Assembly: GCA_951217055.1 (NCBI GenBank)
Contig: OX578286.1
Span: 7,232,033-7,296,032, forward strand
DNA from: Gerris lacustris
Lineage: Eukaryota; Arthropoda; Insecta; Hemiptera; Gerridae
Direction: 5' to 3'
DNA length: 64,000 bases
Positions 3,395 through 52,006 of the stretch are shown here, piece by piece. The notes under the pieces were generated by a model. The model was not told the DNA's origin and made no database searches. It saw only the letters and a program-made list of their open reading frames with translations. The translations under genes were made by a program, and so were the position numbers. Positions within the stretch are counted from its first letter, which is position 1. Each line of letters opens with the position of its first letter.

Positions 3395-3517
3395 TTAAAA
3401 TGTCTTGACTTCATCTAAGATTTCAGCAAGTGCATATTCCCGGTCTCTGCAAACTTTGCCGTCGTCTTCCACAGAAAATCTGCATACACCACTGCAGCAA
3501 TCTGAATCGCAATCGCA
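3395..3517 (-). CDS. Gene 1 exon 2: cystine-knot core and stop
   Basis: A pyrimidine-rich tract and CAG acceptor (3518-3520) precede an open stretch of 40 codons plus TAA that starts directly with Cys, in phase 0 with exon 1. The exon contributes C-D-C, then CC, then CSGVC-type spacing, and a last Cys ten residues further. A non-cysteine tail of about 17 residues rich in E, L and A ends in KTF. Combined with the Cys of exon 1 the framework is C-x6-C-x5-CC-x3-C-x10-C, with an extra Cys inside the second loop (seven in the mature region). The odd number is unusual for a knottin and would leave one free thiol or allow a dimer. Intron length is 2085 bp. The precursor would be 101 residues, normal for the class. 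A rival reading, an unrelated ORF in AT-rich DNA, is unlikely given the exact framework fit. Confidence 0.72.
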   Translation of the reverse strand, partial: CDCDSDCCSGVCRFSVEDDGKVCRDREYALAEILDEVKTF

Positions 3518-3799
3518 CTGGAAAGAAAAAATAATATATAGTTAACTATTATGGTAACGGTAATTGGTGAGGCATATGGTGGTAATATACAACCATACCC
3601 GACTGACATCCAGCCGCCACCTGCCGGTGGCGCAACACAGTCAGCCCATTGTTTTCCATGGAGTCCGCCAAATGGCGCCACCCAAGCCGCAGCCACTCGG
3701 CATCAAACACTTTTTCTTATCTCAATGTTATCACCAACTTTTATTCGGGGCTAACTGAAACAATCATATTAGTGTTTTTACTGGTCAAACAGTTCTTCA

Positions 3800-3975
3800 A
3801 TATGCTAAGCAAGTCGTCGAGAATTTCTCGTGAATTTTGGCAAAAATTGCACTGCCGTCTATGATACGTAGGTACGAACTGAGTGGAAAAGACTTGTTTT
3901 TGTGAATTTTGGCATAAATTGCACAAATTACACTGCCATCTCTGATACGTGTGTACGAAGTGCATGATAAACATT
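3800..3975. repeat. Two-copy local tandem duplication in gene 1 intron
   Basis: GAATTTTGGCAAAAATTGCA...CTATGATACGT and GAATTTTGGCATAAATTGCA...CTCTGATACGT are adjacent diverged copies of about 75 bp. The surrounding 3540-4210 has GGTGGCGCAAC-type motifs in both orientations but no recognised element. Confidence 0.55.
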
Positions 3976-5297
3976 TGTATTGTTTTTGTCCAAAATTATT
4001 GGATGTAGCCAAAAAAGCTTTTGTTCCTTCTTCTTCCACGAACACAACGATATATAGCGAACACAGATATCTCTTCCGGCTCCTTTTATCGAATGGTAGA
4101 AAAAAAGGACTAAACTCGAGTGGCGCAACAGGTGGCAGAAGCAAGTGGCAACAACCAGGTGGTGTCACGTTTAGAGAGATTTGTAAGGCTCTGGGGCAGA
4201 ATAAGTTGCATTTTCTCTGAGGAAACCATATTTATTATAAAATTAGTTAAAGAGACAATATGTCAAGATGAAGTATTACGATGAAGGAATTATTTACAGA
4301 TTTAGACGTTTTAAGCCTTCAAATTTCAAATACTATTACACGCTTCTACAAAGACTAAGTACAACAACAAAATACTCAACAAACTGTATAGATGAGTGTA
4401 GCCTTAAGTACAGAACCGATTTTGATGAAATTAGGAATAAATTTATTAAAAACATATTGCACTCTGAAATTACATCTAGAAATGCTTGGGTTCTCATTTT
4501 AAATTAATAAAAAAAATCATCAATTTTCTTTCCTTTAACAAACGCTTCGGAAAAGTATGTTTTTTATATTATAAACTTAAACAATTTGAATACCAACGAA
4601 ACCACTTAAGTTGCTCTATGAGTAAAGTGTAACAGGTCTATTAAAAATTGACAATATAAAGTATTCTATATATATTTATGTTAAAACTGCTCCATATAAG
4701 TTAAAATCCAATTAATGAACCTAATTGTTACGAAAATGGGACACAAAAATATAAAATGAAATCCAATATAATAAAGTTTTCACAGAAAAAGCTTTTGCAA
4801 TGTGAGGATAATAAAAGTCGGTCCGAGACAACTCATACAAAGAGACACAGAGTTACTTTAACTTTCTTATTTTTAAATTTGTGCATATAAGTTTTTATAT
4901 TATTTTATAAAACATGTATTGTTTTACAAAAAATGACTGTTCAATAAACAAAATTAGTTGAAATTGGCGATGATGTCATTGTTTTACGCAGTGAGAAAAA
5001 TTGGTCATCGTTTTATTTTCATTAAAAAAATATATATGTGTATGCGACTCTCACGCATTAGAAGCGAAAGTTAAGTTCTAGAAACAGTTGATTTTATGCA
5101 TTGCTCTCTTCGCATTTGTTGACCATTTTATTATTTTAGGATTAAGGAATAGGTATGTGGAATTTAATTGAAAAATATAATATTTTCATAACATTTTAGC
5201 GAATAATGAAGAAAAAACATGAAAACAACATTTATGTATATTATAATTAGTATAATATTACTCTTGTATACCAATTCTGTGAATTGATAAATCATCT

Positions 5298-5560
5298 ACC
5301 TCCGTGGTGCAATGGTTAGCACTTATGCCTGCTGATTTAGAGGTTTGTAGATCGAAACTCGTCCAAGTGAAAGATTTTTTACAAGTAAATCAACTACCGA
5401 CTTAAGCCAGCAGTTGATGTATCTATTAAAAAATCTTTCACTTAGACAAGTCTCGAGTTACAAACTTAGTTACATGCCATTTCGTTTCATAAAAGCCAAT
5501 TTAGTCTACTACGACTAAAGAAGTTTCACTTATACAAAAAAAAAAAAAAAAAAAAAAACG
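5298..5560 (+). mobile_element. tRNA-derived SINE with poly(A) tail
   Basis: A tRNA-like head, TCCGTGGTGCAATGGTTAGC (box A region) with a degraded box B (AGATCGAAACTC) about 35 bp on, is followed by a unique body and a 23-A tail at 5536-5558. The body holds an inverted pair (AAGTGAAAGATTTTTT and its complement). Inserted in gene 1's intron, antisense to the gene. Confidence 0.65.
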
Positions 5561-5602
5561 AAAAAAATATTTGTGGAACAAGATTAAATATTATGAATTT
5601 AC

Positions 5603-5785
5603 CTTTTCTTCGTCCATAAAGCACTTAAGTTGTCTATGATGTTCTTCATGATATACTTGAATATCTTCGTCTAAATTCCCATCAGAATTTAATTGCAATA
5701 CAGCAATTCCTTGGACTTCAAGCAGCAAAATTGTGCAGAAAATTGATAAAGTAAACAGAGCAAGAGTTGCACTCATTTTCATCAT
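5603..5785 (-). CDS. Gene 1 exon 1: secreted cysteine-rich (ICK-like) peptide, signal and propeptide
   Basis: Encodes 61 residues. The start has two Met codons (MMKM...), followed by a hydrophobic stretch (about residues 5-25, with LFTLSIFCTILLLEV) that reads as a signal peptide, probably cut near VQG/I. A short acidic spacer rich in D, E, H and Q follows, and then the first framework cysteine at residue 55 (QLKC). The frame is cut exactly six residues later by a GTAAAT donor at 5602-5597, phase 0; read through, it stops after only four more codons. A matching acceptor and cysteine-rich exon lie 2.1 kb downstream. The gene is head-to-head with gene 2, with 1.7 kb between start codons. Seen: ORF, signal-like segment and splice consensus. 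Known: signal plus acidic propeptide plus C-x6-C-x5-CC framework is typical of knottin precursors. Inferred: secretion. Function unknown. Confidence 0.72.
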
Positions 5786-6022
5786 TTTAAAGTTTATTTT
5801 CTTTTGAATATTTGAGGAATAAAAAAAAATATATAAGTTAGACGTCCCAAATCTTGTAGACTATGAGCTTAATGGAATTTACAGAAATTATTTTTGTAAC
5901 TTTTAACTCTAAATGTTAAAATATAAGAATTGTTATAAAATATACACTGGCTTATATTGTTCAAAATCAATCCTTTATATATATATATCCTAAGCAAGTT
6001 ATCTCTAAGTATTATATACACA

Positions 6023-6107
<85 letters not shown>
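6023..6107. repeat. (AT)n microsatellite
   Basis: About 85 bp of near-perfect TA dinucleotide repeat; other long tracts are listed separately. Confidence 0.95.
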
Positions 6108-6111
<4 letters not shown>

Positions 6112-6723
6112 TTTTGTAAATGTATAATGTATCTATCGTGTAACATATATTTTTACATGACAAGATGATCGATAATAAACTTTTAGCAAATTTGATATAA
6201 ATGTTTTTAGTATTATACTTGCAATTTGTAAGTATCAAATATACTGCAAAAAGTTATTGCATCTAATTTATTTAAAGTTAACATGGAAAATAAAAAAATA
6301 TATATTTTCACATTGTGAAAATGAATTGCTTGCTGTCGTTTCGTATAATTAATTTTTTTTTCATTTATTCTTAAATAAAATTAGAACATGAATAAATCAA
6401 AATTTAAATAACAATTTGTTCGAAAAGAAACAACTTTTAATGAACTCATGGAAATTTAATTTATTTGATTTCTCAGAATATGTTAAATGAAATATTTCGT
6501 TCAAATATAATTATAACAAAACTAGATGACGTTTTTGTTTATTTTATTTAATTTTATAAAAGAAAAAAAAAAAATTTAATGAGGGTAAATATGCATTAAC
6601 ATTTTGTATAATTACAATATATATATATATATATATATATTCTATTTTAAATTATTTTCTAGGTCTTAAACAATATGTTAGCTAACTATTTAATGTTTAA
6701 AGAAAGTAAATATTAATTAAAAG

Positions 6724-6768
<45 letters not shown>

Positions 6769-7234
6769 GCATGCACACACTCATATTGTACATATATTAT
6801 ACACATTAGTATACCTTAATAAATCAGTTGTTTAGATATCATATAAATATATATATATATATATATATTTTTTTTTTATTTTTTTTATTTTTTTTAATGA
6901 TCTCTAATATTTTATGTCATTGCACTAGTCGAAAAAAAATGTCATTTATACTTAACTGTTCTAAAAAATAGAAATGACCTACATAAATGAAATATGCAAT
7001 AAAGATAAAAAAATAAAAATTAGAATGTGTAAAGAAGGCAATATTTAGTTACTAAATAAAATGTCTTAATTTGACTAAAGGCCGTAAATTATTAAAAAAT
7101 AGGTATATGATTTATGGAATCATATCTGTTGTATTATACTTTATAGTACATATAATATATGCCGCTGTGATAATTATTGATTTTTAAAGATATATGAAAT
7201 ATAATAATTTACACAGCCGCTGCAATGAAGAGAT

Positions 7235-7241
<7 letters not shown>

Positions 7242-7305
<64 letters not shown>
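7242..7305. repeat. (AT)n microsatellite
   Basis: About 64 bp of perfect TA repeat just upstream of gene 2. Confidence 0.95.
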
Positions 7306-7308
<3 letters not shown>

Positions 7309-7348
7309 GTCTGTTTATTTACTAACATTTATATACTCATTACTCATA

Positions 7349-7359
7349 CTATATAAATA
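7349..7359 (+). promoter_or_regulatory. Candidate TATA box of gene 2
   Basis: CTATATAAATA about 125 bp before the chosen ATG of gene 2, just after an (AT)n tract. Weak evidence in such AT-rich DNA. Confidence 0.25.
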
Positions 7360-7483
7360 TTGCAGTTGTAGTTATTATTGTTTATTGATTTAAGTTTTAT
7401 TGTATAATACCTTGGATAGTTTTAATTCTATTTATTTATCATTTTATTTTATTCGTAATACCAATAGATATTTTGTTGCGGGC

Positions 7484-7615
7484 ATGAAATTAATGATATG
7501 TATTGTTATGTGTTTTATGATGATAACTCTAATGGATATGATAAATGCTGGTGGAGGAGGATATGGACAATATCATGAATATAATGATTGCTTTTGTGAT
7601 GAAATTATTGATGAG
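7484..7615 (+). CDS. Gene 2 exon 1: secreted peptide first exon (partner exon not found)
   Basis: Encodes 44 residues: MKLM, a strongly hydrophobic Met/Ile-rich signal segment (to about residue 22, ending INA), a Gly/Tyr/His spacer (GGGGYGQYHEYN), then C-F-C followed by six residues (DEIIDE) and a GTAATA donor at 7616. The last Cys lies exactly six codons before a phase-0 donor, as in genes 1, 3 and 4. An in-frame ATG exists at 7400, but it would bury the signal peptide, so I start at 7484. A TATA-like box lies at about 7349-7359. I searched the plus strand downstream for AG followed by TGY with a TGYTGY pair and found none. The second exon may therefore be lost, diverged or very distant; without splicing the frame stops after four more codons (VITI). 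Member of the same family by architecture only. Confidence 0.5.
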
Positions 7616-8156
7616 GTAATAACTATTTGAATAAATAATTTATATATTTATGCGAATAGAAATTAATAATGTCATATTTGAATTTCACTTCTATCTGCTT
7701 CTCTCTCAATAGAATGGATATATGATTGTTTACATAAGATCTGGTTTCGATTCCCAGTGGGTTAGATTTATTTTTATTCAGTAGAACTTGGGACCGAGAG
7801 AACATGGCGCTGGAAAGGAATGCCCCCCTCGATCTAGGGCTCATTTTTCTTCTCTCACTGTCCCCTACACGAGGGCATATCGATGGCACGGTTTAGATTT
7901 GGTTTTGGTGAGATCCTATGTACAGAGATTTGTCCTTAAATATATTAAAGAATTAAAGTGATTGGTTATTTTGACTGAGATTATTTGGTACCACTTTATA
8001 ATTATGAATAGTAACACAACAATTTGAGTTACATTTTACCATTTTACCTTTTGTTAACCTTAAACCATTTCTTAATTAAAGTATTATTTAAGTAAAAGTT
8101 AAAGAGCGCAGATGGTTCAAATTAATCTGGGGCTATCTGCGGGTTACTATCAATAA
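7616..8156. other. Unrecognised sequence after gene 2 exon 1
   Basis: Searched for the missing gene 2 exon without success. Bases 8100-8150 match repeat family B (GGTTCAAATTAATCTGGGGC). No other feature seen. Confidence 0.4.
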
Positions 8157-8227
8157 AGGCGCGTCTACACGATCCAAGTTGACTTGGAACAAGAAACTTT
8201 GATCAAATCCACTTGGCCAAAGTAATA

Positions 8228-8908
8228 ATGAATTACTATCTCCAGTAGGGGAAAAAAGTTATGATTTTGAATTAGTTTAAAGGGACTAAAACAGGTATTT
8301 TCATCCCTGAACTCAAAAAGTAGGGAGAAAAAGTAAAAGTAGGACGAAAAAGTAAAGTAGGGCAAAAAAGTAAAGATGCAACCTAATTATTTTATAAATA
8401 GTAGAAAATGTATGGCTAATGTAATAAAGTTGTCGAAATCAGGTTGGCGGCACTGCGCTTTTTTGACCATGTTTATCTTTGTTTACAACATTATAACCTG
8501 CATCTAAATAACCTTCTATTTGAGTTTAATTCCAATTCTTATTTGTTTTTAATATTGAATCTCTTATATCTGCTATTAAAAATTCTAATAATTATTGTTA
8601 TTTATTAAAATAATAAATAAAAACTGTGCAGTGGACGAAAATGTGTATTTTCTTCCTACTGGAGATAAAATATTGTATGTACCTCGTGAGTAAAGTGCCA
8701 TTATTCCCCTCGCGATAATTATCACCCTCGGCTGCGCCTCGGGAGCTAATTAGAGTTATTCCCTCGGCTGCGCCTCGGGAATTAATGAGTCTAATTCCCT
8801 CGGCTTCGCCTCGGGATTTAGGGACCATGGTTTCTTCGGCTTCGCCTCGAGAACCAACATTTTTCGCTCAGGGAATAATGGCTTACTTTACTCCCTAGGT
8901 GCATAAAT
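8228..8908. repeat. Dispersed ~680-bp repeat with GC-rich quasi-palindromes (copy 1)
   Basis: Shares its full course with 53890-54503: ATCTCCAGTAGGG at one end and AGGGAATAATGGCTTACTTT at the other. Four copies of CCTCGGCTTCGCCTCGGGA-type motif at 8725-8855 are each self-complementary in part and stand out from the AT-rich background. Confidence 0.75.
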
Positions 8909-9000
8909 AAATATTAATGCAGTGTTTACAGGATCCAAGTATACTTGGTCCAAGTAGGGGAACTTGTCAAAAAAAATCATTAAGAAGCAAAGGAATGAAT

Positions 9001-9290
9001 AAAATAATCCTACCGCGGGGTTCCGCAAGCCAAGCGAATTTCCATTGGAAATTTGTGTTCAATGTTGTGCAGTTTAAACTTCCTTCATAACTACTACAAT
9101 TGTGTGGATTGTTTAAAGTTAAAAAACTTTATAAGAAATATTGTAGTTGGATTAGGGTTTTTATAATAATGCTTAGTTAAACATAATAGTAGTAGTTTCA
9201 AAGAGGTTTAAACTGCACAACATTGAACTACAAATTTCCAATGGAAATTCGCTTGGCTTGCGGAAACCCACGGTAGGATTATTTTAAATC
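9001..9290. repeat. Palindromic MITE-like repeat
   Basis: AATAATCCTACCG...CGCAAGCCAAGCGAATTTCC...GTGCAGTTTAAAC is repeated in reverse complement at about 9203-9285, giving arms of about 90 bp around an approximately 110-bp middle. Confidence 0.75.
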
Positions 9291-9730
9291 TTTGGTGACT
9301 CATCAGGAGGGGTTAATTACATCATAAAGATCCCATTTTTTAGGGGATGCTCATCTCAACGAGCTTGATTTTTCGGCGCAAGTTTTATTTTGATACGTCA
9401 ATTCGTTCGAGAGCTATCGTGCTTACAAGAAATCCGCAAGAAATTGTTGTTATTACTACTATTATTATTATAAAATTATTATTCGAATCACTATGGTAAC
9501 TCATTTTTTGGATTCAGGATCTTAAAAAATATATGAAGCGATACCTCACTTGATTTTTTGTATATTATTTAATCTTTGCTGACTCATCAGGAGGGGTTAA
9601 TGACGTCATAAAGATCCCATTTTATTAGGGGATCCTCATCTCAACGAGCTTGATATTTCGGTGCAAGTTTTATTTTGATACGTCAATTTGTTCGAGAGCT
9701 ATGGTGCTCACAAGAAATCCGCTAGAAATA
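9290..9730. repeat. Two-copy direct duplication, period about 280 bp
   Basis: GACTCATCAGGAGGGGTTAA through CAAGAAATCCGC occurs at about 9296-9440 and again at 9580-9722 with a few differences. Confidence 0.8.
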
Positions 9731-10346
9731 CAAGTACTAATATAAGTAATATATATAAAGTTTTGTAAAACCTATTTTTTCGTGATCAGGGACCCATGAA
9801 ACGTATTTTGGCCACAATCCCGGCTCAAACTCCCGCCATGCCCGTGGCTCTATTAGCGATTATTTTCCAATGGAAATTCGCTAAAAATTTGAAAGAAATA
9901 AAAGCTGTCAATAATCTTCTTTATAAACAAATCCGTCACAACTTTTCACGTCTTATCTCATTTTTGACAGCTGTCTTGTCATAATCATATGGTTGACGCC
10001 ATCCAAGTCTACTTAGATCAAATAACGTCCAACTCAACTTGGATGTCCAAGTTGACTTTGATAACCTGCTTACACGATCCAAGTAGCGTCAAAATAGTGT
10101 CAAAACTGATTTGGTCCAAGTCAAATTGGATCATGTAAACTCGGCTTAATCGGCACTTGTGTTTTAAATAATATTGGCTCGATTTTAATTGGTTTTCGAA
10201 TCACCACACGACACGAACCGAAAAAAACGGAAGAAAAACGTGTGCCGGGATAGAGAGATATTCTAACCTCACTATAGGGTTCCCTCTCTAACGACCGTTG
10301 AAATAAACCTGCGTTCCAAAGAAATGAAACACTAATTGGCACTTCC

Positions 10347-10714
10347 TAGGGTTGGGATATCGAAAGAAAATATCGATATTTTCGATATATCGACATCGAG
10401 TGGTTCAACATCGATATTGGCGAAAATATCGAAAGACAATATCGATATATCCGATATATCGAGAACCTCGATATATCGGAGTTTTTTATACTGATGAGAA
10501 AAAAAAAAAAAAAAAAGGTCGCCAGGGCAATTATTTTTACCCTGCTGAACAATAGAAAAGAGAAGAAAAGGTCACCGCCTTCCGATTTTCGATATATTTA
10601 AAAAATATCGATATTGCCGATATATCGAAAGATCAATATCGATATCAAATATCGATATTTTTTGGTCCGATATATCGATATTTTCGATATATCGGAATCG
10701 AAGTCCCAACCCTA
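10347..10714. mobile_element. hAT-type MITE, 368 bp, rich in TATCGATA
   Basis: Ends TAGGGTTGGGA / TCCCAACCCTA are flanked by a perfect 8-bp duplication GCACTTCC at 10339-10346 and 10715-10722, the hAT signature. The interior is built from ATCGATAT/CGATATATCG palindromes, with at least six exact TATCGATA octamers. No coding capacity. Confidence 0.88.
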
Positions 10715-10919
10715 GCACTTCCGACTTCTGCCATCAAGTAACCGATTCTAACGACAATTTTTATCAAATCCGATTCCAAAGCGTCCAAAAACTATGTATA
10801 ACCGTGAATACTTAAATTAAATATTCGACGATCGTACTTACCGATGTGGACTGTGAACTGACTCCAAGATGGCGCGAGACGGTCTCGCCGGAAGGGGGGT
10901 TTTGGGGGTCCGCGCCCGA

Positions 10920-11180
10920 AATTCTCAGACTACGTCTGAACAATTAGCTAATTATGACCTACCATCCTAATTTCAATAAAATCAGTGGAGTAGTTTTTAA
11001 GATAAATTAGTTCGCAAAAATTAAATAACAGACCAACAGACAGACACGAAACTAAAAATGTTCCCTGATGGCTGAAACGGATTTCTGTCTTGGAATTTTT
11101 GAAAATCGGAGACATAAAATATTTTTTATCTTTAGAACGGTCACATGGCTTCCGTTACCTTTGGTAACCTCTAAAGGAAA
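10920..11180 (+). repeat. Dispersed repeat family B (copy)
   Basis: Contains the family signature ACAGACAGACACGAAAC followed by ATGTTCCCTGATG and CTGTCTTGGAATTTTT, and a GGAGACATAAAA motif. Shared with 47220-47690 and 48820-49030. Confidence 0.65.
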
Positions 11181-11238
11181 ATCAAAACAATGTTGACGGA
11201 TTTAAATAAATTGGTAATGCGTGAATCTCACGTAAAAA

Positions 11239-12230
11239 GGGTTTCGTTGGTATTGTGAACATAAAATTAGTAAGGGGGGAGGGGAGAAAAGTTTTGATTT
11301 TTTTTTGACAAAATGGCGCGCAAAATTAAATGTTAACATCAAGTGTTATACATTTTTGAAATCTACTCTTCAATACCTTTCATTTGATACCCCACTCAAA
11401 ATTAAAAAAAAAAAAAAATTCGGATAACATGAATTATCTGCCATCATTGATTTCCAGTAAATCAGATCAAATTGATAATCTTATTTTTTGTATGGCCCAG
11501 CAGACCGCACATTTTGCATATTTTTCTATATTTTTAGTAATAGCGGAAATACAATTTTAGGGGGGGGGGGGGGGGGGGGCAAGCAAAATGTCGGTGTTTT
11601 TTGACAAAATGCCGCTGAAAATTAAGCACTATCCCTAAGTGGTATATATATTTCTATTCTACTCTTCAGTACCTTTCATTTGATACCCCACTCAAAATTT
11701 AAAAAAATATTTTTTTTTCCCCGTGACAGGTATTAGCCGCCATCTTGGATTCCCAGTAAATCAGATCAAACTGCTAATCCTTTTTTTTCTATGGCCCAGC
11801 AGACCGCACATTTTGCATATTTTTCTATATTTTTAGTAATAGCGGAAATACGATTTTAGTGGAGGGGGGGGGGGACACGCAAAATGTTGATGTTTTTTGA
11901 CAAAATGGCGCCTAAAATTAAGCACTTTCCTTAAGTGGTATATATATTTGTAATCTACTCTTCATTACCTTTTATTTGATACTCCATTCAAAATTTAAAT
12001 AAAATATTTTTTCGCGTAACGTGAATTATTCGCCATTTTGAATTTGAATAGCTAATAATTGTGAGTTCTCTATATTATTTCTGTGTGGACGTCAAAATGA
12101 TCTTTAATATTGGAAAGTTTCATGTTTTTATCTCTTTTGGTTCAGAAGTTATTGGAACCGTACAAAGTGATAGACAGACACAGGAACGAAACTATAAGTG
12201 TTTCTTTTTTTGATTTTACCAACGAAACCC
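11239..12230. mobile_element. TIR-bounded repeat (GGGTTTCGTTGGTA ends) with ~295-bp internal tandem copies
   Basis: Begins GGGTTTCGTTGGTA and ends TACCAACGAAACCC. Inside, three tandem units of about 295 bp share ATCTACTCTTCAATACCTTT, ATTTGATACCCCACTCA and GGCCCAGCAGACCGCACATT; the phase marker recurs at about 11361, 11655 and 11953. Runs of G (up to 19) sit at unit junctions. A further diverged unit lies at about 12940-13270, and a second copy of the right end at 14000-14092. Confidence 0.7.
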
Positions 12231-14092: not shown

Positions 14093-14094
14093 TG

Positions 14095-20042: not shown

Positions 20043-20080
<38 letters not shown>

Positions 20081-20093
20081 ATATATATATTTA

Positions 20094-21183: not shown

Positions 21184-21315
21184 TTACAATCCTAAGAAAG
21201 GTGGATGGAAATGCATGAGACGTCCAAGGAATCTAGGATGGCAGAATCTACCCAGTAGAGGAACAGCTGCGTTGAAATGGCACATGTTCGAACAGCAATC
21301 ACCATGATCTGAACA
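21184..21315 (-). CDS. Gene 3 exon 2: cystine-knot core and basic/His tail
   Basis: A T-rich tract and TAG acceptor (21316-21318) lead straight into Cys in phase 0 with exon 1. The exon has 43 codons plus TAA. Cys spacing is C-x5-CC-x3-C-x12-C; with the Cys of exon 1 this gives C-x6-C-x5-CC-x3-C-x12-C, six cysteines, the number expected for three disulphides in an inhibitor cystine knot. The last inter-cysteine loop is long and neutral (HFNAAVPLLGRF), and the tail after the last Cys is basic and His/Pro/Phe-rich (for example GRLMHFHPP). The GR could be a processing site, but that is inference. The precursor would be 81 residues. No close poly(A) signal was identified. Confidence 0.75.
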   Translation of the reverse strand, partial: CSDHGDCCSNMCHFNAAVPLLGRFCHPRFLGRLMHFHPPFLGL

Positions 21316-22950: not shown

Positions 22951-23064
22951 AGTTTCCAGCATTTGTCTGCATTGTAGTGGTTCGGGTGTTTCTTGAGATA
23001 TAACTAAAGTAAAAACTATTACAAATATCGAAAGAAATAATACAATATTATTATGCTTGGCCAT
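22951..23064 (-). CDS. Gene 3 exon 1: secreted cysteine-rich (ICK-like) peptide, signal region
   Basis: Encodes 38 residues. After MAKHNN comes a hydrophobic core (IVLFLSIFVIVFTLVIS, residues 7-23), a probable signal peptide cut near SQ/E, then a short spacer TPEPLQ and the first framework Cys at residue 32. Six residues later (RQMLET) the exon ends at a consensus GTAAGT donor (22950-22945), phase 0. A TATA-like TATATAAAG sits on the same strand at 23160-23168, about 95 bp upstream of the ATG, which would give a 5' leader of roughly 65 bp. Compared with genes 1 and 4 it has almost no propeptide. The intron (21316-22950, 1635 bp) holds SINE copies and a Jockey-like LINE remnant. Confidence 0.74.
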
Positions 23065-34059: not shown

Positions 34060-34340
34060 TAAACAGTGGTACCTAGAAGGACTAATGGCTGGCACGCTTG
34101 CGCACCGAGAGCTATCAACTATAGTCAGCATGTACGCCTCAGAGACGTAGTGTTATAAGTGCAGGGTTAAATGTCATTGCTGAGTACTACTCAGATCTAT
34201 ACTCAATTAACTAACAAAAAGAATTGATCAACGATAAGGCAGAGAGCAGTCTAGGTGATCTTTTAGTGGAATGGGTCTTAGCAAGACTCAAGATCAATGA
34301 AGCTTCAAGACCAGATCAAGTAAAGAACCAAGAGTTGAAA

Positions 34341-39404: not shown

Positions 39405-39632
39405 TTAATTAGAGGTTGGTGCTTGGTTTTGATGTTGATCCACAGGTTGGAGTAAAATAAAAAAAAAAAAAACATGGAATATAACGAGGTATATAATTTA
39501 TATAATGAGTAATAATTTATATAACTATTGTGTAGATGTGTAATAATTGTGTGTGGGTGACATGTGTGACCATTGACATAAAGGCCGTATTAGACTATCA
39601 AATTTGTTGTCAATATGCTATGTCAATGTTTA

Positions 39633-42765: not shown

Positions 42766-42949
42766 GTGGAGAGACTTTTTTTGAACACTTAATGATGACC
42801 TCCACTAACGCTTCATATCTTAACTTCCCTATCTATTGTTTTCATTTTCTCACCTCTCCAATTGTTTTGTTTATGTTTAACTCAGAAATTGATTACTTAC
42901 GTGAATTAAAATATTCTATTGTTAAACTCAACAAAGTTTATAAGAATGC

Positions 42950-43560: not shown

Positions 43561-43934
43561 TTAACCCACACTAGACACTATGAAAAAGTAATATGTTTTA
43601 TTAGCATTCAGTGATTTATTTTCAATCCATTTTTAACTTCTATTGTTATGTAAAAACATAAAGAACAAGAAAAACTATTTTTTAAAAAATTATAAACAAT
43701 ATAAATTTGACCATTTTTTGGACAAATATTACAGACTAGGGTATGACAGATAATATATTAGTAACATTTGCCTGAAGCAGACTAACTGAGGAAAGATTAC
43801 CTTGAATATGGGCGGGAAAAAACTAGTGGTGGAGTCAATACCACCTTTTTTCAAAAATATACACGTCAAAATGACGTAGATAAGCATTCTAGGGTTAATA
43901 GTTCTCATTGAGTCCCTGCTTTAACTCGGGGTAA

Positions 43935-44106
43935 TAATAACTGTTTTCACGGTTCTAGAACTGTCTAAAACTGTTTGTCCTTTTGTTGGAATAAGGGAAT
44001 GAAAGTTTCAGAACCGCCTGAGAAGCGTGTTGGAACGGTCTTTTGATAGTGCGCATGATCCAGACGGTTCTAGAACTGTCCGAGGCTCTGTTGGAACAAA
44101 CCTGTA
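43935..44106. mobile_element. MITE fragment with GTTGGAACAAACCT end
   Basis: Reverse complement of 31784-31975, including CAGACGGTTCTAGAACTGTC and AGGCTCTGTTGGAACAAACC. Confidence 0.65.
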
Positions 44107-44119
44107 GTAGATGCCATGA

Positions 44120-45260
44120 GTTTCGCATTGTCGGAGGTAAATATCGATGCCAGAGTTAGGAGGTATATAACCGCAGCCTTATCATTATGCTAGTGTTATT
44201 CATAGAGAGGTGGATGATTTGTTCTAAACTGGTGTCTTGGGTTTTGACGTGTGAGGATTTGAGGTTTGATTTTGTGGCAATTAGTACACCGCCTCCACTG
44301 GATTTTTGGCTGTTGAGAGAGTTCTGATCGCATCTAAAGATGTTGAAGTTTAAAAGTCCAAGTTCAGCAGTGAAGTTTGAGCTCATCTGGTTAGTTTCAG
44401 TCAGAGATATAATTTCTTAGTCAACCAAGGGTGCCGTAGTTTGAAGGGTAGAAAATTTAGTACAAATACCGTTAACGTTTTGGTAGGAAAGAGAAAGGTA
44501 TTGATGTTTGCCGAAGTTAACTAGTTTTTTATTTATATGAACAATTTTAGGTGTGCCATTTCTATACTTAACGGTAACATCTTTTTCCCTATTATAATTC
44601 TCTCTTCAAGTTCACTGCTAAGTTTATTTAGATATTCAAGATGTTTAGGAGTTTCAACAGATGTGATTTGTAAGCTTTATGGTTGAATTTTAATCCCAAT
44701 ATCCTTCTAGATATGAGGTGAGTGTAGGATAATTTTGATAGCCCTGGTTTTGTTGTTTTTCATAGACACTCCTAGTCTCAGAGTTTTTATTGAATCAATA
44801 GATATTTTTCATTTTTCAGATTGTGTTAATGATGTCTGTCACTGTGGTGTTCTTGAACGTCCGTAGATCCGTTTTCTGGTAAATTAATGATAGTAAGATT
44901 ACAGTCTCTAGATTATCTATAATTTATTTCTTGGATTACTTCTTCCATAGCAAACAATTTCTGTAAGTTATTTCTACAAATGGGATGGGTCAGAGTCTGT
45001 TTGATAACAGGTAGCTTTTGCATTACCTTATGATTATCACATACATTGATGTGTTAAAGGCTTTGGATTTCCTAGACAATCATTACACGTAAATAAAATC
45101 TCTTGAGGTTTACCTGCTATCAGTTGAACTTCTCTTCTTGATAAATTACAACACCTGTAATTGTATGTAGAGATTTTAAACAAACAGAGCAGGTTATTAT
45201 TTCATATTTAGCAGCTAATTTATTATTCCAGGCTGATTGATGTTTCACTCATTGTAAAAA
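44120..45260 (-). pseudogene. LINE remnant: zinc-finger ORF1 and endonuclease start
   Basis: Minus-strand frames, broken by shifts and stops: near 45200-45100 a C-x2-C motif (EIITCSVCLKSLH) typical of PHD-like ORF1 zinc fingers; near 44890 NLTIINLPENG, like an ORF1 RRM segment; then LSLSYQNVNGICTKFSTLQT (about 44500) and EIISLTETNQ, SGGGVLIATKSNLKSS (44156-44386), the start of an APE-type endonuclease (Y.QNV.G, TET, GGGV). The RT part is absent. I/Jockey/CR1-like; exact clade open. Confidence 0.78.
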
Positions 45261-46292
45261 CCACTAAACTTAATAAAACTGCATAAAAAACAAGTTAAAA
45301 GTTCTATAACTTAAGAATAATTAATTTAAGAGTAGCGCACAAACATTAAGATGCTATCACTTATCACTATAACAGGTGAACTAGTGTTTCTTTACTTAAC
45401 TAAACTATAATCCACTCCACTTCAATTTTTTTTTTAGCCGAATATAACCAAAATATAACAAGGCAATGAAATTAGATCAAATTAAAAACCTAAATCTTGA
45501 GCTATAAGTTATAACGACACGGACACGTAATTGTAATCGATATCGAAATACAATCCCTATAACCTTCCCTCTTCCTTATCACTTATCTTGTTAATTTTTA
45601 TTTTAATATGCCTTCTGTTTATACTTAATATGTAAAAAGTTTCACTTCTAGTATTACTGTTTATCTTAATTAAATTTAAAAAAATATATATATCATTTTT
45701 CAGTTATCCTAATACATCAAAGGTTAAAATAGTTATTATTTTTGTCATCCATTAGAGTGTGAATATTTTTGTGTAGTATATTATTTTTTCCACAAATCCC
45801 AATACTCTGTAGCATTCTATATTAAAAAGCCACTATAAAACATTCTAAATTAAAAAATATTGAATTATTTTATGGAAAGGGGTATCTCCACGGCCATAAG
45901 AGAAAAAATAGTTTGAGAATAAATGTACCACATCAATTGGCAGACAATTTTAAACGTCTTTTTATAAATAAATTTCCGTCGAATCTTACAATTCGTCCAA
46001 AATTTCGAATCTTTTAATGCATCTGGAAGAAACTTGTGAATAAAAGGTCTAAACAAGTTATAATGATCATTGTCCAGTTTATTAAAATAATTGACTAAAT
46101 ATTAACTGGTTCTGTGATTCAGATTTCAGGCCAAAAATGAAGATTAGATCTGGCAACAATGTACATTCTACGCTTAATTGTTGAATCTAAGATGCCATAT
46201 CTAACCCCGAAGGAATTAAATATTAATTCGCATAAAAACTGAATCACAAACAAGATTCCAGTGTGACATGATTCATTTCATGCGTTTAGTCA

Positions 46293-46376
<84 letters not shown>

Positions 46377-46703
46377 TATCGTGCAGTACATGTATTTATA
46401 ACAGCTATTATATTAATTATATATTATCAGTAAATAGCGCAAAGTTAAATTAAAAAAAAAAGGAAATTTATATTTCATAATTAATTGCAGCGTTTCTATA
46501 AAGTCAGTTTTATAACATTTTTTTTTATTGTATTACAACTGTTTCCTTTCCTTATGTATTATTCAATAACATTATTGTTAGAATACATTTGAAAATAAGT
46601 TTTAAACAATAATAGTTATTGTACTCTCATATATTTCATACTTTATTTAATATCAAAAAATAGTTTATTTAATATTTTATATTATATTAAATTCAAAAGC
46701 GAA
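45261..46703. other. Upstream region of gene 4
   Basis: AT-rich, with (AT)n at 46292-46375. The minus ORF at 45865-46056 has no recognised motif. No clear core promoter could be assigned because TATA-like runs are frequent. Confidence 0.4.
46292..46375. repeat. (AT)n microsatellite
   Basis: About 84 bp of TA repeat, 330 bp before gene 4. Confidence 0.95.
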
Positions 46704-46937
46704 ATGCAATCATTCCGCTGTAACATGTTATTAGTTTTGTCTCTTTTTTTTACGTTTATTTTAAAAAATGATGGAGCTCCGCATCATCCAAAAACAACTA
46801 CAACTTCTGCAGCTGCTCCAGCTTCTGCAGCTGCTCCAGCTTCTGCAGCTGCTCCAGCTACTGAAACTGCTCAAGGTACTGAAGCTGCTCCAGGTTCTTC
46901 TGATAAAACGGATAACTGCACTCTATTGTATAAACCT
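46704..46937 (+). CDS. Gene 4 exon 1: secreted cysteine-rich (ICK-like) peptide with Ser/Ala/Pro-repeat spacer
   Basis: Encodes 78 residues. MQSFRCN and a hydrophobic core (MLLVLSLFFTFIL, residues 8-20) form a likely signal peptide, cut near NDG/A. Next is a His/Pro/Lys/Thr stretch, then a low-complexity spacer in which the six-residue motif SAAAPA is repeated about three times (an 18-bp DNA repeat near 46806-46860), followed by T/E/G/S-rich sequence. The first framework Cys is at residue 72, six residues before a consensus GTAAGT donor at 46938, phase 0. Without splicing the frame runs on to a stop near 47069. Such Ser/Thr/Ala/Pro spacers resemble mucin-like, O-glycosylation-prone regions; that role is inference. 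Confidence 0.74.
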
Positions 46938-47209
46938 GTAAGTATTTTATATTTATTGATTGCATTCAAGGTTGCTGAAAGCTTAAGGAAACATCTTGAT
47001 CTTTCCATCCTGCAATATCGCTACAAATTCAAAATTCTCTTTTCAGAAAAACAAAATTTTAGACATTAGAAGGTGTTTCTATTTTATAACACCCATATTA
47101 TGAAATTTACTTGTTAAACAAAGTTATTTGAATAAATGATCCATAAGTATATGAATTTAGCAAAATTCAAAGAGTGCAGATTCTTAAAATGAATTAAAGT
47201 GTCAATTTA

Positions 47210-47690
47210 GCGCAGACGGTTGAAATTAATCTGGTGCTATCTGCGGGCAACTTTTGACAAACCATCCAAATTTCATTGAAATCAGATGATACTTTGAAAT
47301 ATATAGGTGTAAATAAATGTATGTTTGTGCGCATGTGGAAGAGAAACAAATTAGTGAAGACGGTTAAAACTTATATGGGACCAACAATGGGCTAATTATG
47401 AACTACTATAAAAATTTCATCAAAATCAGACGGGTAGTTTTTGAGATATGTTGGTTTGGAAAAATTGGACGACTGAAAGACAGACAGACAAACAGACCGA
47501 CAGAGAGACAGACCGAAAGACAGAGAAGGAAACAAAATTACTTCCTGATATCCGAAATGGATTTCTGTATTTTTTTGGATTTTGTATTTTTTTTGGATTC
47601 TGTAAGTTTTTTTTAGTCGGAGACAAAACAAATTTCGTTCTTTAGAACGATGACAATACATACGTGGAGGTTACGTATTACGTTACCTTG
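47210..47690 (+). repeat. Repeat family B (copy) in gene 4 intron
   Basis: CGCAGACGGTTGAAATTAAT, ATCTGCGGGCAACTTTTGAC, and a GACAGACAGACAAACAGACC run, ending CATACGTGGAGGTTACG. Same sense as other family B copies. Confidence 0.65.
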
Positions 47691-47699
47691 GTAAGACCG

Positions 47700-48125
47700 G
47701 AAGTGAAACTAAGTATTTAACGAGTAAATACCCTGTCTATAATATGTATTAAACAAGTAAACACGCTACCTATATGTGTTACACTGGTAAACAAGCTACC
47801 TATATGTGTTACACTGGTAAACAAGCTACCTATATGTATTAAACAAGTTAACAAGCAACATATATGTATGAACAAGTAAACACGCTACATATAAATAATA
47901 TGTATTAAACAAGTAAACAAGCAACATATATGTATAAATTAGTAAACACGCTACCTATAAATATGTATTACACAAGTAAACACTACCTTTATGAATTAAA
48001 CAAGTAAACAAGCAACATATATATGTATAAACTAGTAAACACGCTACCTATTATGAATTACACAAGTAAACTCTACCTATATATATCACACAAGCAGTCA
48101 CGCTATCTATATGAATTAAACAAAT
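47700..48125. repeat. Minisatellite in gene 4 intron
   Basis: About twelve variable units of roughly 30-38 bp around TATGTATTAAACAAGTAAAC and AAGCAACATATATGTAT or ACGCTACCTATA. Confidence 0.8.
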
Positions 48126-48425
48126 AAACAAAAAAAATCGATCCGAGACAACTCAGACAAACTTTCTCATAATACGAGATCATAATTACTTAGCCCAGTA
48201 TTATCCATTTATAAGTTTTCGTAGGTAAATTGAATTATTATTGAACATTTTATCAAAATGTATCATATAAATGACTTCTCATCGGCGGGGAATCGAACCC
48301 GGCCTTACTCCGTCCACGTTTAAAGCTATTTCTTAGAGGACCTCAACAAGTGTAAATACATCAAAATCTTAAAATCAAATTTTTGCGCTATCACAATACT
48401 TTCTCTTTATAAAAGAAAGTAAAAA
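48125..48425 (-). repeat. Repeat family A (internally deleted copy)
   Basis: ATCCGAGACAACTCAGACAA, the box-B-complement GGGGAATCGAACCCGG and the end TTTCTCTTTATAAAAGAAAG are present; the (CAGACGA)n and the middle are missing. Confidence 0.7.
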
Positions 48426-48479
48426 ACGAATGTCGCAAAATAATCAAACTAAATATTAATCAAACAAACCAAAAAATAG

Positions 48480-49030
48480 ACTGCCAATTAGTGTGGCACA
48501 TAGCTTCCTCGCATCGTATCATGTACTTTATTGTTATATTAACTATAAAATTATTATTATATTACATTATTGTTGTATTGTTAATTGTGTAAAAACTATT
48601 AATAGTTTTAGCGACCTTTAACATTTCATAGTGGTGTCGCTGTTTGTTTTACTAAAAAATTGTAATTGAAAAAAATGTTTGTCTCATTGAATAGATGAAG
48701 TTAGATTTTTTCCCCGACCTAAAATTCCAATTAAAAATTTGAAGTTCATGTTTAAGCTAGCATTGCTCGTGAACGCTTTGATGGATAACGTTGTCCAACG
48801 AACTCGTCCTGGGCATTAGTAAAATGAACATGTCTACCAAATTTCATCAAAATCGGTCGACATTTACTCAAGTTATCGTCACACATTTCATAATTCGCGG
48901 ACATACAGACAGGCAGACAGACAGAGACGAGACCAAAAATGTTCCCTGATGTCTGAAACTGATTTCTGTCTTGGAATTTTTAAAATCGGAGACATAAAAG
49001 TTTTTCGTTCTCAAAAGTGAACACAATGTA
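48480..49030. repeat. Repeat family B (two-part copy)
   Basis: Inverted GACTGCCAATTAGTGTGGCA at 48480 and, from about 48820, ATTTCATCAAAATCGGTCGA, ATGTTCCCTGATGTCTGAAA and GGAGACATAAAAG. Copies lie at 10920, 24060, 26340 and 47210. Confidence 0.6.
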
Positions 49031-49044
49031 GCTCGGAAGCAATA

Positions 49045-49625
49045 TATCTATTTAATAGTACATTACGCGTCGAGTGCGGAAAGCAGCATTTTGCATGCGA
49101 GTGTGGAGTTTGCACCCGAGCGACAGCGAGGGTAGTAAAACCACACGAGCAATGAAAAATGCCGTTTTCGCACGAGTTGCGTACCGTACTTTATCTACGA
49201 TTGTAAGATATAAATAATAAATACAGAAAAAAATATACTTGCTGTAAGTAAGTTCGTATCTTTCTCTTGATAAAAATGGCATTAATTCTTGAGTTGTATT
49301 TTTTGCCGAATTAATTATTTCTGGAGGATTATTATTCTCAACATTTTCGTCAAAGTCACTTGATTCACTCATTGTTTTTCATTAAAAACTCGATATAAAC
49401 AAGTTACTTTAATAAAAGAACAGCAAATTAGTTTTGTTAAATGTAAACAAACTCGGTAATCGTGCGTAAAGCTGAAGAATTCCTCTTCTTTACCGCACTA
49501 GGGTGGTAAAGAAGAGGAATTCTTCAGAACTATGAGACGCGCATGCGCAATGAATACAATTACGTAAATAATCACTTTATACGCATCTAAACAGAGATAT
49601 AATGTTTATATTTCGTATCAATCGT
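49045..49625 (-). mobile_element. Hairpin-bearing repeat with Crypton-like ORF start (copy 3)
   Basis: Best-preserved ORF of the three copies: on the minus strand 49372-49052 begins MSESSDFDENVENNNPPEII, continues with TTQELMPFLSRERYELTYSK, then runs into non-homologous hydrophobic sequence. The MPFLSRERYE..Y segment resembles the N-terminal core-binding part of Crypton-type recombinases. The hairpin is at about 49474-49530. The rest of a recombinase is absent, so this is a non-autonomous derivative. Confidence 0.55.
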
Positions 49626-50335
49626 AGATAAAATTTATTTTATACTTAAGGATTATTATTAGTCAGGTACGGTTTAATAATAACTACATAGTTTACCCAA
49701 CTAGTATCGTGTAATTTATGCACATCGTCAGGTTAACTACAAGTAATAGACAATATATACTAAACCTAGAGTTATTATACATATTATATAACAATTTGTT
49801 CAAAGATAAGACACGAAGTTATGACTGACAATAATTAGCAGAGTTCTTTTATATATTGACATAATTAATATTGATTATATTATTATATTATTAAACAGTG
49901 CACACTATTTGTCATCCTCATAAATATTTACCTTGAGTTTTTTCTTAAAAAATAAAAAAGTAGCTCATTTAATTTAAATATAGCTTTATAAGTTACTTTT
50001 AAAAATAAATCTTGATAATCTAATAAACATCCACAGTGAACGAATAAATTCAAGTATATGACAGATTAATTATAAAAAGCAACTAATATATTTCACCACA
50101 AGCTACTTTTGGCACATCTTTAGACTGTTACTCCCCTTTAAAAAAAACAGAACAGAAGTAACAATCTAAAAATGGTGTACGGAATTTTCTTTTTTAGACT
50201 GTTACTCCTTTTTGTCCCTTTTGTCCCCCTTTGTTTTTTGTCCCCTTTGTACATTGGACTAAACATCCCTTTTTCTTAATTAATTAGTCATAGTAATTAT
50301 TTAGTCAAAGTCACATTTATTCTAAAACAACATAT

Positions 50336-50913
50336 AGTCCAGGAGATAGCGTGCTAAAAAGTGTTTGACTAACATCAAGCTAGAATTTTGTATACAAGTC
50401 AATCTTTTAGCACCTTTTAAGAATATGTGGTCGGCTAAGTTCGTCTGCGGGATATTGCTTGGCAATAGGCGTTTGAAAAAAACAAACCGGTGGAGAGCGG
50501 CCATGTCTCACCAATTATGGTGGACAATATGATTTTCATGGTCCTGAGTACAGAATTAATTAGTAGACCAAAAGTCAAGTCGATGTTATTTTTACACTTG
50601 ATAGGTTAGTTATTCAAATATTACTCAAAATAACGTGGTCACCTGTCAAGGGACAAACTAACATCAACTTGAATTTTGGTCTACTATATAATTCTGTACT
50701 CAGGATCATGAAAATCACATTGTCCACTATAATTGGTGAGACATGGCCGATCTCCACCGATTTGTTTTCTTTAAACGCCTATTGCCAAGCTATGTCCCGC
50801 AGATGAACTTAGCCGACCACATATTCTTAAATGGCGCTAAAAGATTGACTTGTATACACAATTCTAGCTTGATGTTAGTCAGACACGTTTTTGCACGCTA
50901 TCTCCTGGACTAA
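50336..50913. repeat. Near-perfect palindrome, about 290-bp arms
   Basis: AGTCCAGGAGATAGCGTGC...CAATTATGGTGGACAATATG...ATAATTCTGTACTC...GCACGCTATCTCCTGGACT folds on itself with a small centre near 50625-50660. A single arm recurs at 56955-57190, with part of the centre at 58140-58240. Confidence 0.85.
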
Positions 50914-51039
50914 TAAAGGAGTAACAATCAAAAGAAGTACCCTACTTTTGAGTATCGTATGCTATCAAGGTAGTAGTAATAAGGGCGGGGAGACCTTGCC
51001 AGGCAAACAGACCATCTTTTTGCCAACCCCAGACGAACC

Positions 51040-51500
51040 CACACCCCTCAAACCACCTCCACCTCATCCTCAAACCTTTTAGTTTGGATTATAAAGGAGA
51101 GGATATCTTGCCACTTAAGAGTTTCAAGTTCCTCTACCCTAATTTCTCCATTCCCTAAGATATGAAAGCGTAATCTCCCATATCCTTCACACACTCCCAG
51201 GTAATGGTAAGCTGTTTCCTCCTCCTCACCACACACTGGACATGTGGGGTCCTCTTCTACTTTTAGCAATGTCAGATGTCTACTGAGCTTGCAGTGTGCA
51301 GTTAGCACTCCAACCAGATTTCTCAGGTTGATCCTGCTCAGTCCTAGCAGCCATCTGGTTTTCCTTTTGTTTATTTTTCGGCAGTAACATCTTAGACTGC
51401 CTGCATCCCTCTGTGCCTAACCATTCCTTATGTGCTTCATCCCATACCCACTTCTTAATGGCTGATTTGACCTGACCTTTCGACCAATCAACTGCATGCT
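51040..51500 (-). pseudogene. Non-LTR retrotransposon remnant, RNase H C-terminal region
   Basis: On the minus strand: SAIKKWVWDEAHKEWLG, then after a frameshift KRKTRWLLGLSRINLRNLVG, LTAHCKLSRHL, and the zinc knuckle CPVCGEEEETAYHYLGVCEG. This W..W, LLGLSR..LR.LVG..T.HC.L..HL and C-x2-C-x8-H-x4-C order marks the end of ORF2 in RNase-H-bearing insect LINEs (R1/Jockey-related). Upstream RT absent. Confidence 0.85.
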
Positions 51501-51886
51501 ATCAAAGTAATAATAATATATAAATGTCCGCTGCAATAATTTATGAGTCCGTTTTTCTTCTTATATTACTCCTCTATTGTTTTTTTTTTAGAATATAAAT
51601 GTCTTTGACTAAATAACTATTAAGACAAAGGGATGTTTAGTCCAATGTACTTTGGGACAAAGGAATATCACACTCCTGTTTTTATAAGGGGAGTAACAGT
51701 CTAAAGAAGAACATTCCGTACACCTTCTTTAGATTGTTACTCCCTTCTGTTTCTTTGTAACAGGAGTAACAATCTAAAGAAGTGCCTGTTTGTCTATGTT
51801 GATGTAAACCTATTGCTTCTTCGCCTAACTTACTTCTGTGATAATCATTTCGACAAAATTTAAAGATAAAATAAAACTGTTTTCAG

Positions 51887-52006
51887 TGCGAATGGAACGA
51901 AGATTGCTGTGAGTGGGCGTACTGTGAAGAAGTCAAACCAAAAGTCAGAGTTTGTCTGCCGTATGATTCATCTTCTTCATCCGAAGAAAATGGTTACTAC
52001 TTCTAA
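51887..52006 (+). CDS. Gene 4 exon 2: cystine-knot core with poly-Ser/acidic tail
   Basis: The TTTTCAG acceptor ends at 51886 and is followed by Cys in phase 0 with exon 1, 39 codons and TAA. Cys spacing is C-x5-CC-x4-C-x9-C; with the exon 1 Cys the framework is C-x6-C-x5-CC-x4-C-x9-C, six cysteines. The loops are acidic and Trp-rich (CEWNEDCCEW). The tail after the last Cys carries five consecutive Ser, two Glu and ends in GYYF. The precursor is 117 residues, and the intron is 4949 bp and full of repeats. A canonical AATAAA lies 23 bp past the stop (52029-52034). This is the best-supported exon of the family because the acceptor, frame, framework and poly(A) signal all agree. Confidence 0.78.
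   Translation, partial: CEWNEDCCEWAYCEEVKPKVRVCLPYDSSSSSEENGYYF

Follow-up and report, generated by a model that had tools for sequence, protein, structure and literature searches.

The window analysed here, a stretch of 64,000 nucleotides from Gerris lacustris, contains three two-exon genes that follow a common plan: the first exon supplies a signal-like start, a spacer and a first Cys followed by six residues, and the second exon starts at the second Cys. Gene 1 lies on the minus strand, its first exon (5603..5785) presenting an acidic spacer and a GTAAAT donor, and its second (3398..3517, stop codon 3395-3397) reading C-x5-CC-x3-C-x10-C before an acidic tail, with one extra Cys beyond the framework. 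Gene 2, also on the minus strand, combines a first exon with a short spacer and a GTAAGT donor (22951..23064) and a second exon (21187..21315, stop codon 21184-21186) with C-x5-CC-x3-C-x12-C and a His/Pro/Leu-rich tail. Gene 3 is on the plus strand, with a repetitive Thr/Ala/Ser/Pro-rich spacer and a GTAAGT donor in its first exon (46704..46937), and C-x5-CC-x4-C-x9-C followed by a Ser/Glu/Tyr tail in its second (51887..52003, stop codon 52004-52006). We infer the pairing of the exons, here and in the neighbouring genes, from their adjacency in the sequence. The predicted junctions are 5603/3517 (-), 22951/21315 (-) and 46937/51887 (+), with an intron of phase 0, and all the exon pairs that the preliminary description had placed at them are present.

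The six cysteines occur in the order C-C-CC-C-C with the knottin spacing C1-x6-C2-x5-CC-x3/4-C-x9-12-C in all three window genes, the spacing first described for them (C-x6-C-x5-CC-x3/4-C-x9-12-C). Six residues separate the first Cys from the junction in every case, and a scan allowing five to seven recovered the same three genes. The whole knot is never encoded by contiguous DNA in the window, a single exon being short of one knot Cys. A hydrophobic core follows the Met in every first exon, as seen in a hydropathy scan rather than with a trained predictor. The tails are acidic in genes 1 and 3 and contain Pro, Arg and His in gene 2, and genes 1 and 2 lack repeats or a mucin-like spacer. The possibility that the three are exons of one long gene was ruled out, as a signal-like exon and a stop codon are present in each of them. 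ARAGORN, run on the window with the bacterial code, returned nothing.

For the lone first exon, mentioned in the preliminary description without coordinates, our candidate is at 7484..7615 on the plus strand, with a signal-like start, a Cys followed by six residues and a GTAATA donor. It exceeds the chance expectation, a hydrophobic stretch of such strength being expected only 0.03 times per simulated window, but it has no partner: no fitting second exon was found on the plus strand up to gene 3, and it therefore stays incomplete, a candidate relic or incomplete gene. The only four-Cys candidate, at 34151, was rejected as its pattern is unrelated.

That such an arrangement is very unlikely to arise by chance, as already argued for this locus, was borne out by simulation. 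With an AG acceptor required, the second-exon pattern was matched three times in the window and in none of 200 simulated windows. When the acceptor was dropped, a looser pattern matched in six overlapping rows, grouped at four places, compared with 0.34 in a simulated window; of these places, the fourth, at 48041 (-), falls within a tandem repeat and was taken as chance. The first-exon pattern is weak on its own (six matches in the window against 0.95 per simulated window). Strict second-exon matches numbered 17 across 264 kb, with none in 40 order-3 simulations, and relaxing the AG requirement gave 20 against a simulated mean of 0.05; allowing loops of 3-8 residues returned the same 17 matches, all with five residues before the CC. 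Among 19 tabulated exons, both TGT and TGC are present at every Cys position, and the pyrimidine share before the acceptor is 0.74 against a background of 0.48.

The presence of the family at the described loci was confirmed, but its extent had been understated, since it reaches beyond the window on both sides and into the rest of the 937-Mb genome. To the left lies a fourth single-knot gene, with Val/Thr/Pro repeats and five, not six, residues before its junction. To the right (C10) are two multi-knot genes, the first beginning 468 bp past the edge: gene A, with 5 predicted knots, and gene B, with 8 predicted knots, Ser/Gly/Asn-rich repeats of about 25 residues and internal exons of 339 and 1444 codons. 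A third multi-knot gene, on C8, has at least 18 predicted knots and Pro/Thr linkers; its signal exon is followed by 18 further exons, the final one containing a stop, and the predicted chain of exons extends from 5585179 to 5606177. In these genes, an internal exon first completes one knot with cysteines 2-6 and then, past a linker, opens the following knot with its cysteine 1 and six more residues, an intron being predicted to interrupt every knot. With a generic donor matrix, 23 of 28 internal exons gave the top score to a donor of phase 0 lying six residues past a Cys, and such donors ranked 2nd to 4th in the other five, while they represent only 28 of 342 GT sites; the exon side of the donors often departs from the consensus. 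On C8, a two-exon unit including its intron is duplicated (84.7% over 464 bp). Apparent membrane segments ending the internal exons at 7312215 and 7329683 were discarded as an artefact of reading past the Cys-x6 donor into the intron. The last exon of gene A does end in a hydrophobic stretch.

The search of the assembly for the cysteine framework, suggested in the preliminary description, retrieved 33 sites against 3 in a reversed control, and this count is a lower bound because the pattern took the Asp form only. When inspected by eye, 18 of 24 fetched off-locus sites continue as ICK-like exons and 6 do not. The ICK-like sites are distributed over at least seven contigs (C2, C3, C6, C7, C8, C9 and C10), and many members are small and unlinked. 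C6 encodes a further single-knot gene with exactly the same plan, first exon and junction as the window genes. Two C6 members have Tyr-rich tails. Loss of constraint on the cysteines had been proposed as a refutation of the family; among five copies on C2, and thus for these copies rather than for the window genes, the constraint held. None of the 60 pairwise Cys codon comparisons showed a replacement and, since the search pattern itself fixed three of the six cysteines, the informative part is the 30 comparisons of unfixed cysteines, all unchanged. Four divergent pairs of these copies gave pN of 0.20-0.30 against pS of 0.76-0.92, while in one pair pN was above pS (0.20 vs 0.15) and in another they were about equal (0.20, 0.21).

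Sequence similarity between family members is barely detectable. In genome searches, gene 1 reached the C6 gene at E 0.09, the gene 3 exon retrieved only itself, and the C6 exon retrieved C6:35891860 (E 0.03), C3:48014567 (E 0.15; this site has an internal stop and no ICK pattern) and gene 1 (E 0.54). Exons were used singly as queries, never spliced into one protein. No homologue was found within the E limits among 5.8 billion predicted proteins (6, 136 and 7984 candidates, the 7984 being scored with query words limited to residues 1-500 of the 1444-codon exon); our guess is that spliced eukaryotic genes are scarce in this set. The window exons are below every Pfam cut-off: gene 1 has a weak Conotoxin_I2 match (E 0.096), genes 2 and 3 have no Pfam match, and the O-superfamily conotoxins (PF08087) did not match any window exon at E up to 10. 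Among ten neighbour exons scanned, one passes a cut-off, a gene A module matching PF08087 conotoxin-O (24.7 vs 24.3 bits). Against the PDB, the second exon of gene 1 alone retrieved only a non-knottin (E 0.27) and the C6 exon alone had no match. A profile of the three window exons and C6 retrieved three ICK toxins (E 0.14-2), and wider profiles placed ICK peptides first, with best E of 0.007 (A4) and 2.9e-4 (A5, C8 profile). Profile A4 matched the beetle antifungal knottin ALO3 at E 0.039. The C8 profile matched Hi1a (E 2.9e-4), Xt3a (E 0.0089), the assassin-bug toxin ADO1 (E 0.13) and tachystatin A (E 0.25), and 2 of the 18 C8 modules matched Tachystatin_A (best E 0.0034).

The cystine knot is a predicted assignment, resting on the framework and the profiles. 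With the profiles retrieving ICK peptides first and the C6 gene sharing the same plan, the original reading of ICK-like secreted peptides with a fixed phase-0 intron is still the best one. Judging from the sequence, the window genes are very probably real coding genes of a fast-evolving insect or pancrustacean secreted ICK family, with a phase-0 intron after Cys1 and six residues. In the mitochondrial sequence, where cox1 was identified by family and nad2 and cox2 were read by eye, the tRNA genes follow the ancestral insect order, which fits an insect or other pancrustacean but not a ditrysian moth; eight cox1-like fragments were counted.

Few small protein folds are as stable as that of the knottins. 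After removal of the signal, the six cysteines would pair 1-4, 2-5 and 3-6 as a knot, giving a hard, stable core and leaving the loops and tail free to change. The window genes would represent the minimal, single-knot form, and it appears that the cut piece of the knot was multiplied next door into many-knot proteins. As an internal exon of phase 0-0 carries cysteines 2-6 and the next cysteine 1, one exon would equal one knot in frame and, according to this exon plan, the copying, loss or skipping of one internal exon would add or remove exactly one knot. Similarly, any exon with cysteine 2 at its start could follow and complete any first exon with Cys-x6 at its end; with such interchangeable ends, signals, spacers, tails and knot number could therefore be recombined through the introns. 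Tentatively, and with somewhat more doubt than confidence, we propose that this out-of-register exon is a general insect engine for poly-knottins of any length and recombined single-knot effectors, with the window holding the one-knot and C10 and C8 the 5-, 8- and 18-knot products; exon skipping could yield further knot numbers.

Regarding their role, these peptides may be extracellular effectors for which antimicrobial or other defence, and secretion, would be more likely than a dedicated venom, this being the weakest step of our proposal. Defence peptides with antimicrobial or antifungal activity, similar to ALO3, the tachystatins and the hymenopteran naickins, are a reasonable possibility. 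Both the ALO3 match and the Tachystatin_A modules point in this direction, although genes 1 and 3 have acidic rather than basic tails. The intron position is also that of the naickins and amickin-1, described as tachystatin-type AMPs (PMC2853521). Venom or salivary toxins directed at the ion channels of a prey or host animal, like those of assassin bugs, spiders and remipedes, seem rather unlikely. The PDB profile matches are indeed mostly venom ICK peptides, including ADO1 and the remipede Xt3a, and change outside the cysteines together with tandem clusters is usual for venom genes; however, the solved ICK structures are mostly toxins, and these matches therefore indicate the fold and not the role. 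Moreover, the profiles also retrieve ALO3 and tachystatin A, and a spread over at least seven contigs, with mucin-like and 1444-codon exons, would be odd for a venom set. We are slightly more doubtful that the knots have a structural purpose, as modules that cross-link extracellular matrices, mucus, cuticle or silk, with the single-knot genes as offshoots: the Pro/Thr linkers of C8, the repeats of gene B and of the left-hand gene, and the Tyr-rich C6 tails would fit, but repeats and mucin-like spacers are lacking in window genes 1 and 2, and many members are small and unlinked. Finally, it is very improbable that the exon pairs are unexpressed chance matches or relics (pseudogenes), as the lone first exon and the 6 of 24 off-locus sites that do not read on might suggest, considering the empty simulated windows, the open frames, splice sites and plan conserved at unlinked loci, and the Cys constraint among the C2 copies.

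If these are genuine genes of a secreted ICK family, a splice boundary fixed inside the knot is a simple rule that would let evolution add knots singly and in frame. Should transcripts confirm it, this would explain the diversification of such peptides, supply natural many-knot proteins for study, and provide a search rule (AG/C-x5-CC and C-x6/GT, the slash marking the splice site) for genes that may escape standard annotation, each of their knots being spread over two exons.

The family shares its cysteine framework with ALO3 and the O-superfamily conotoxins, a likeness of framework and profile and not of intron position. Polydnavirus Cys-motif genes have an intron inside the cysteine motif, and this likeness is a lead only. 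We did not find the many-knot form in the published literature. A comparable gene structure is that of naickin-1, -2 and -3 of Nasonia vitripennis and amickin-1 of Apis mellifera, tachystatin-type ICK peptides for which a phase-0 intron before cysteine 2 has been published (PMC2853521), a position that all three window genes share by sequence. In contrast, the tails of these bee and wasp knottins are rich in proline and positive residues, which only gene 2 approaches, genes 1 and 3 being acidic, and the available text mentions no multi-knot form (PMC2853521). The remipede Xt3a is a pancrustacean multi-ICK protein, but with two domains only (PMC9950431); the words exon and intron are absent from the main text of that study, and its UniProt search with single Xt3a domains gave 137 pancrustacean hits, which included 53 ICK sequences and no multidomain one (PMC9950431). 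The bivalent spider toxins of the Hi1a/Hc1a type similarly contain more than one ICK domain per protein. Nevertheless, their third exon encodes the whole mature two-domain toxin, whose origin did not involve introns, and the study states that intron-mediated repeat formation is unreported for bivalent toxins (PMC13172734), whereas the multi-knot genes described here have a predicted 5, 8 and no fewer than 18 knots, each expected to be interrupted by an intron.

Three two-exon genes are present in the window, as the preliminary description had claimed, and could be read directly at their junctions: gene 1 (5603/3517, minus strand), gene 2 (22951/21315, minus strand) and gene 3 (46937/51887, plus strand), with introns of 2085, 1635 and 4949 bases by coordinates. 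In all three, the first exon runs from a hydrophobic signal-like start through a variable spacer to a cysteine, six residues and a GT donor, and the second exon has the second cysteine directly after the AG. Scanning for second exons (AG, Cys, 4-6 codons, Cys-Cys, 2-5 codons, Cys, 4-15 codons, Cys) retrieved exactly these three places, versus none in 200 simulated windows (order-2 Markov). A looser scan without the AG gave four places in the window versus 0.34 per simulated window; the fourth sits in a tandem repeat and is taken as a chance match. The first-exon rule is weak by itself (6 matches versus 0.95 per simulated window) and, therefore, the pairing of the exons depends on the second exons, adjacency and strand. 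These are very likely real genes, and they are likely of the inhibitor cystine knot (ICK, knottin) kind. Among the repeats, a 73-bp satellite of 22 copies occupies window positions 54829-56449, its unit being 82-88% like stretches 50117-50208 and 51679-51782, close to the second exon of gene 3. A fragment in the intron of that gene (51048-51416, minus strand), weakly like zf-RVT (E 0.0026, below cut-off), is probably a retrotransposon remnant.

The window corresponds to bases 7232033-7296032 of contig C10. When it was extended by 100 kb on either side (264 kb), a wider pattern (first loop of 3-8 codons) recovered 17 second-exon places. Three are those already described and one is 15 kb to the left of the window; the remaining 13 lie to its right (7305192-7342655), and all of these are on the plus strand. 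The strict pattern likewise gave 17, versus 0 in 40 order-3 simulations. The frame before the left-hand second exon spans 323 codons, opens with a signal-like start, contains Val/Thr/Pro repeats and closes with a cysteine and five residues followed by GTAAGT; we read this as a fourth predicted single-knot gene whose spacer is mucin-like.

The right-hand exons belong to two predicted multi-knot genes, both on the plus strand. Read in order, gene A opens with a signal-like exon (7296500-7296745, 468 bp beyond the window), after which come five knot exons; gene B opens with one at 7327093-7327182, followed by eight knot exons that include internal ones of 339 and 1444 codons. The 1444-codon exon (L018:1495-5826) lies between two knots and is 20% Glu and 13% Lys; it had no Pfam match, and words from its first 500 residues retrieved no homologue. 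Eleven of the 13 exons are non-terminal and present five cysteines, a linker, and then a cysteine and six residues at a phase 0 GT donor. A third multi-knot gene, traced outward from one pattern match on contig C8, consists of a signal-like exon (5585090-5585179) followed by 18 others that extend to 5606177; a stop closes the last of them. The 18 exons are of two types in alternation, and our list begins with the second type; one exon may therefore have gone unlisted between 5588417 and the signal exon. One intron of this gene holds a tandem repeat array of about 53-bp period (C8:5598443-5599457).

The C8 donors were initially chosen by the rule of six residues after a cysteine, and a rule-free test was then run, in which a generic donor matrix scored every GT in 28 internal exons (17 from C8, 11 from C10). 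The top-scoring donor was in phase 0 and six residues past a cysteine in 23 of the 28, and the donor of this kind ranked second to fourth in the remaining five, while only 28 of the 342 GT sites are of this kind. Over the assigned junctions, including those of first exons (located by scans permitting other spacings too), the spacing is six residues in 35/36 and five in 1/36. Every internal exon is in phase 0-0 and combines cysteines 2-6 of one knot with cysteine 1 of the next, which makes it a circular permutation of the knot. Duplication of one internal exon would add exactly one knot and keep the frame. C8 carries two copies of a unit made up of two exons and the intervening intron; the copies share 84.7% identity over 464 bp, and their ends fall outside the exons. 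This fits growth by recombination in introns, which is inferred rather than observed.

Across the assembly (937 Mb, 69 contigs), an Asp form of the pattern (AG and Cys, four codons, then Asp and Cys-Cys, then a codon whose first base is A or T and whose second is C or G) gave 33 sites versus 3 in the reversed control, a lower bound, as only 8 of the 17 units of the C10 locus fit this form. Besides these 8 and C6:35891999, there were 24 others, all fetched, of which 18 continue as ICK-like exons, judged by eye; L032, L033, L034, L044, L049 and L055 do not, by the same judgement. Six sites cluster on C2 near 113.41 Mb and four on C10 near 14.07 Mb; ICK-like sites occur on seven contigs, the sole C1 site not being ICK-like. 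A single-knot relative on C6 was picked up at weak similarity (E 0.09); 3.7 kb upstream of it lies a first exon with a cysteine, six residues and GTAAGT. Two C6 members (L002:1492-1653; L026:1588-1665 onward, minus strand) carry Tyr-rich tails, unlike the other members seen.

On the mitochondrial contig C69, the tRNAs run Ile, Gln, Met, then Trp, Cys, Tyr, Leu(UUR), Lys, Asp; cox1 occupies the interval from Tyr to Leu, and nad2 and cox2 were read by eye. We take this arrangement to be the ancestral insect order, which places the organism among the insects or other pancrustaceans. A cox1 copy at C1:5210962-5212302 scores the same as that of C69. Among the ten matches listed there are a further eight cox1-like fragments, on C1, C2, C7 and C9, one of them below cut-off. 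These copies may be mitochondrial insertions or an assembly artefact.

Regarding the fold, a profile of 36 exons (omitting L039, whose first 26 residues are the same as those of L038) found 17 chains in the PDB at E values of up to 2.5, with a mu-O conotoxin (0.007), maurocalcin (0.023) and ALO3 (0.039) at the top. Except for pB1, which is unplaced, these matches bear names that we take to be those of knottins. A profile of 18 C8 exons matched 36 chains up to E 5, headed by spider Hi1a (2.9e-4) and psalmotoxin (0.0033), with remipede Xt3a (0.0089) in fifth place; six are clearly non-knottin, the best-ranked of these at E 0.47, and a few names are unplaced. A four-sequence profile including window exons matched three ICK toxins in the PDB (E 0.14-2). 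Searched alone against the PDB, the second exon of gene 1 matched one non-knottin (E 0.27) and the C6 exon matched nothing. The window exons pass no Pfam family cut-off; one of ten neighbour exons, from gene A, passes PF08087 (24.7 versus 24.3 bits) and the other nine pass none. At E up to 0.1, Conotoxin_I2 matched 7 and Toxin_18 matched 4 of the 36 profile members. Toxin_12 was matched by 6 of the 18 C8 modules.

No close copy of the window genes was found, and the constraint figures concern copies on C2 and C6. Five C2 copies were compared over their first 26 codons (10 non-independent pairs), and cysteine codons were replaced in 0 of 60 pairwise comparisons, 30 of them free, the search pattern having fixed three of the six cysteines. 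The four pairs that include L040 had pN 0.20-0.30 and pS 0.76-0.92, and the C6 pair 0.31 and 0.99. For the close pairs, pN was 0.20 in both L037/L038 and L037/L039, with pS of 0.15 and 0.21, respectively; pS exceeded pN in the other four. In the tandem copies L036-L039, the tail from the knot to a fixed C-terminal end is hypervariable, and the DNA past the stop aligns well. As to function, we lean towards secreted effectors of defence or of secretion, and place venom or saliva peptides second.

The plan of the window genes is that published for hymenopteran ICK genes (PMC2853521), and their architecture is therefore already known; they are single-knot members of it, standing beside multi-knot genes. 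Hc1a-type double knots are reported to sit within one exon, and repeat formation through introns is unreported for the bivalent toxins described to date (PMC13172734), and no multidomain ICK is reported among the pancrustacean UniProt matches of a single-domain search (PMC9950431). Many-knot genes with split knots were not found among the literature matches listed. Set beside these systems, the multi-knot genes look like a new variant of ICK genes.
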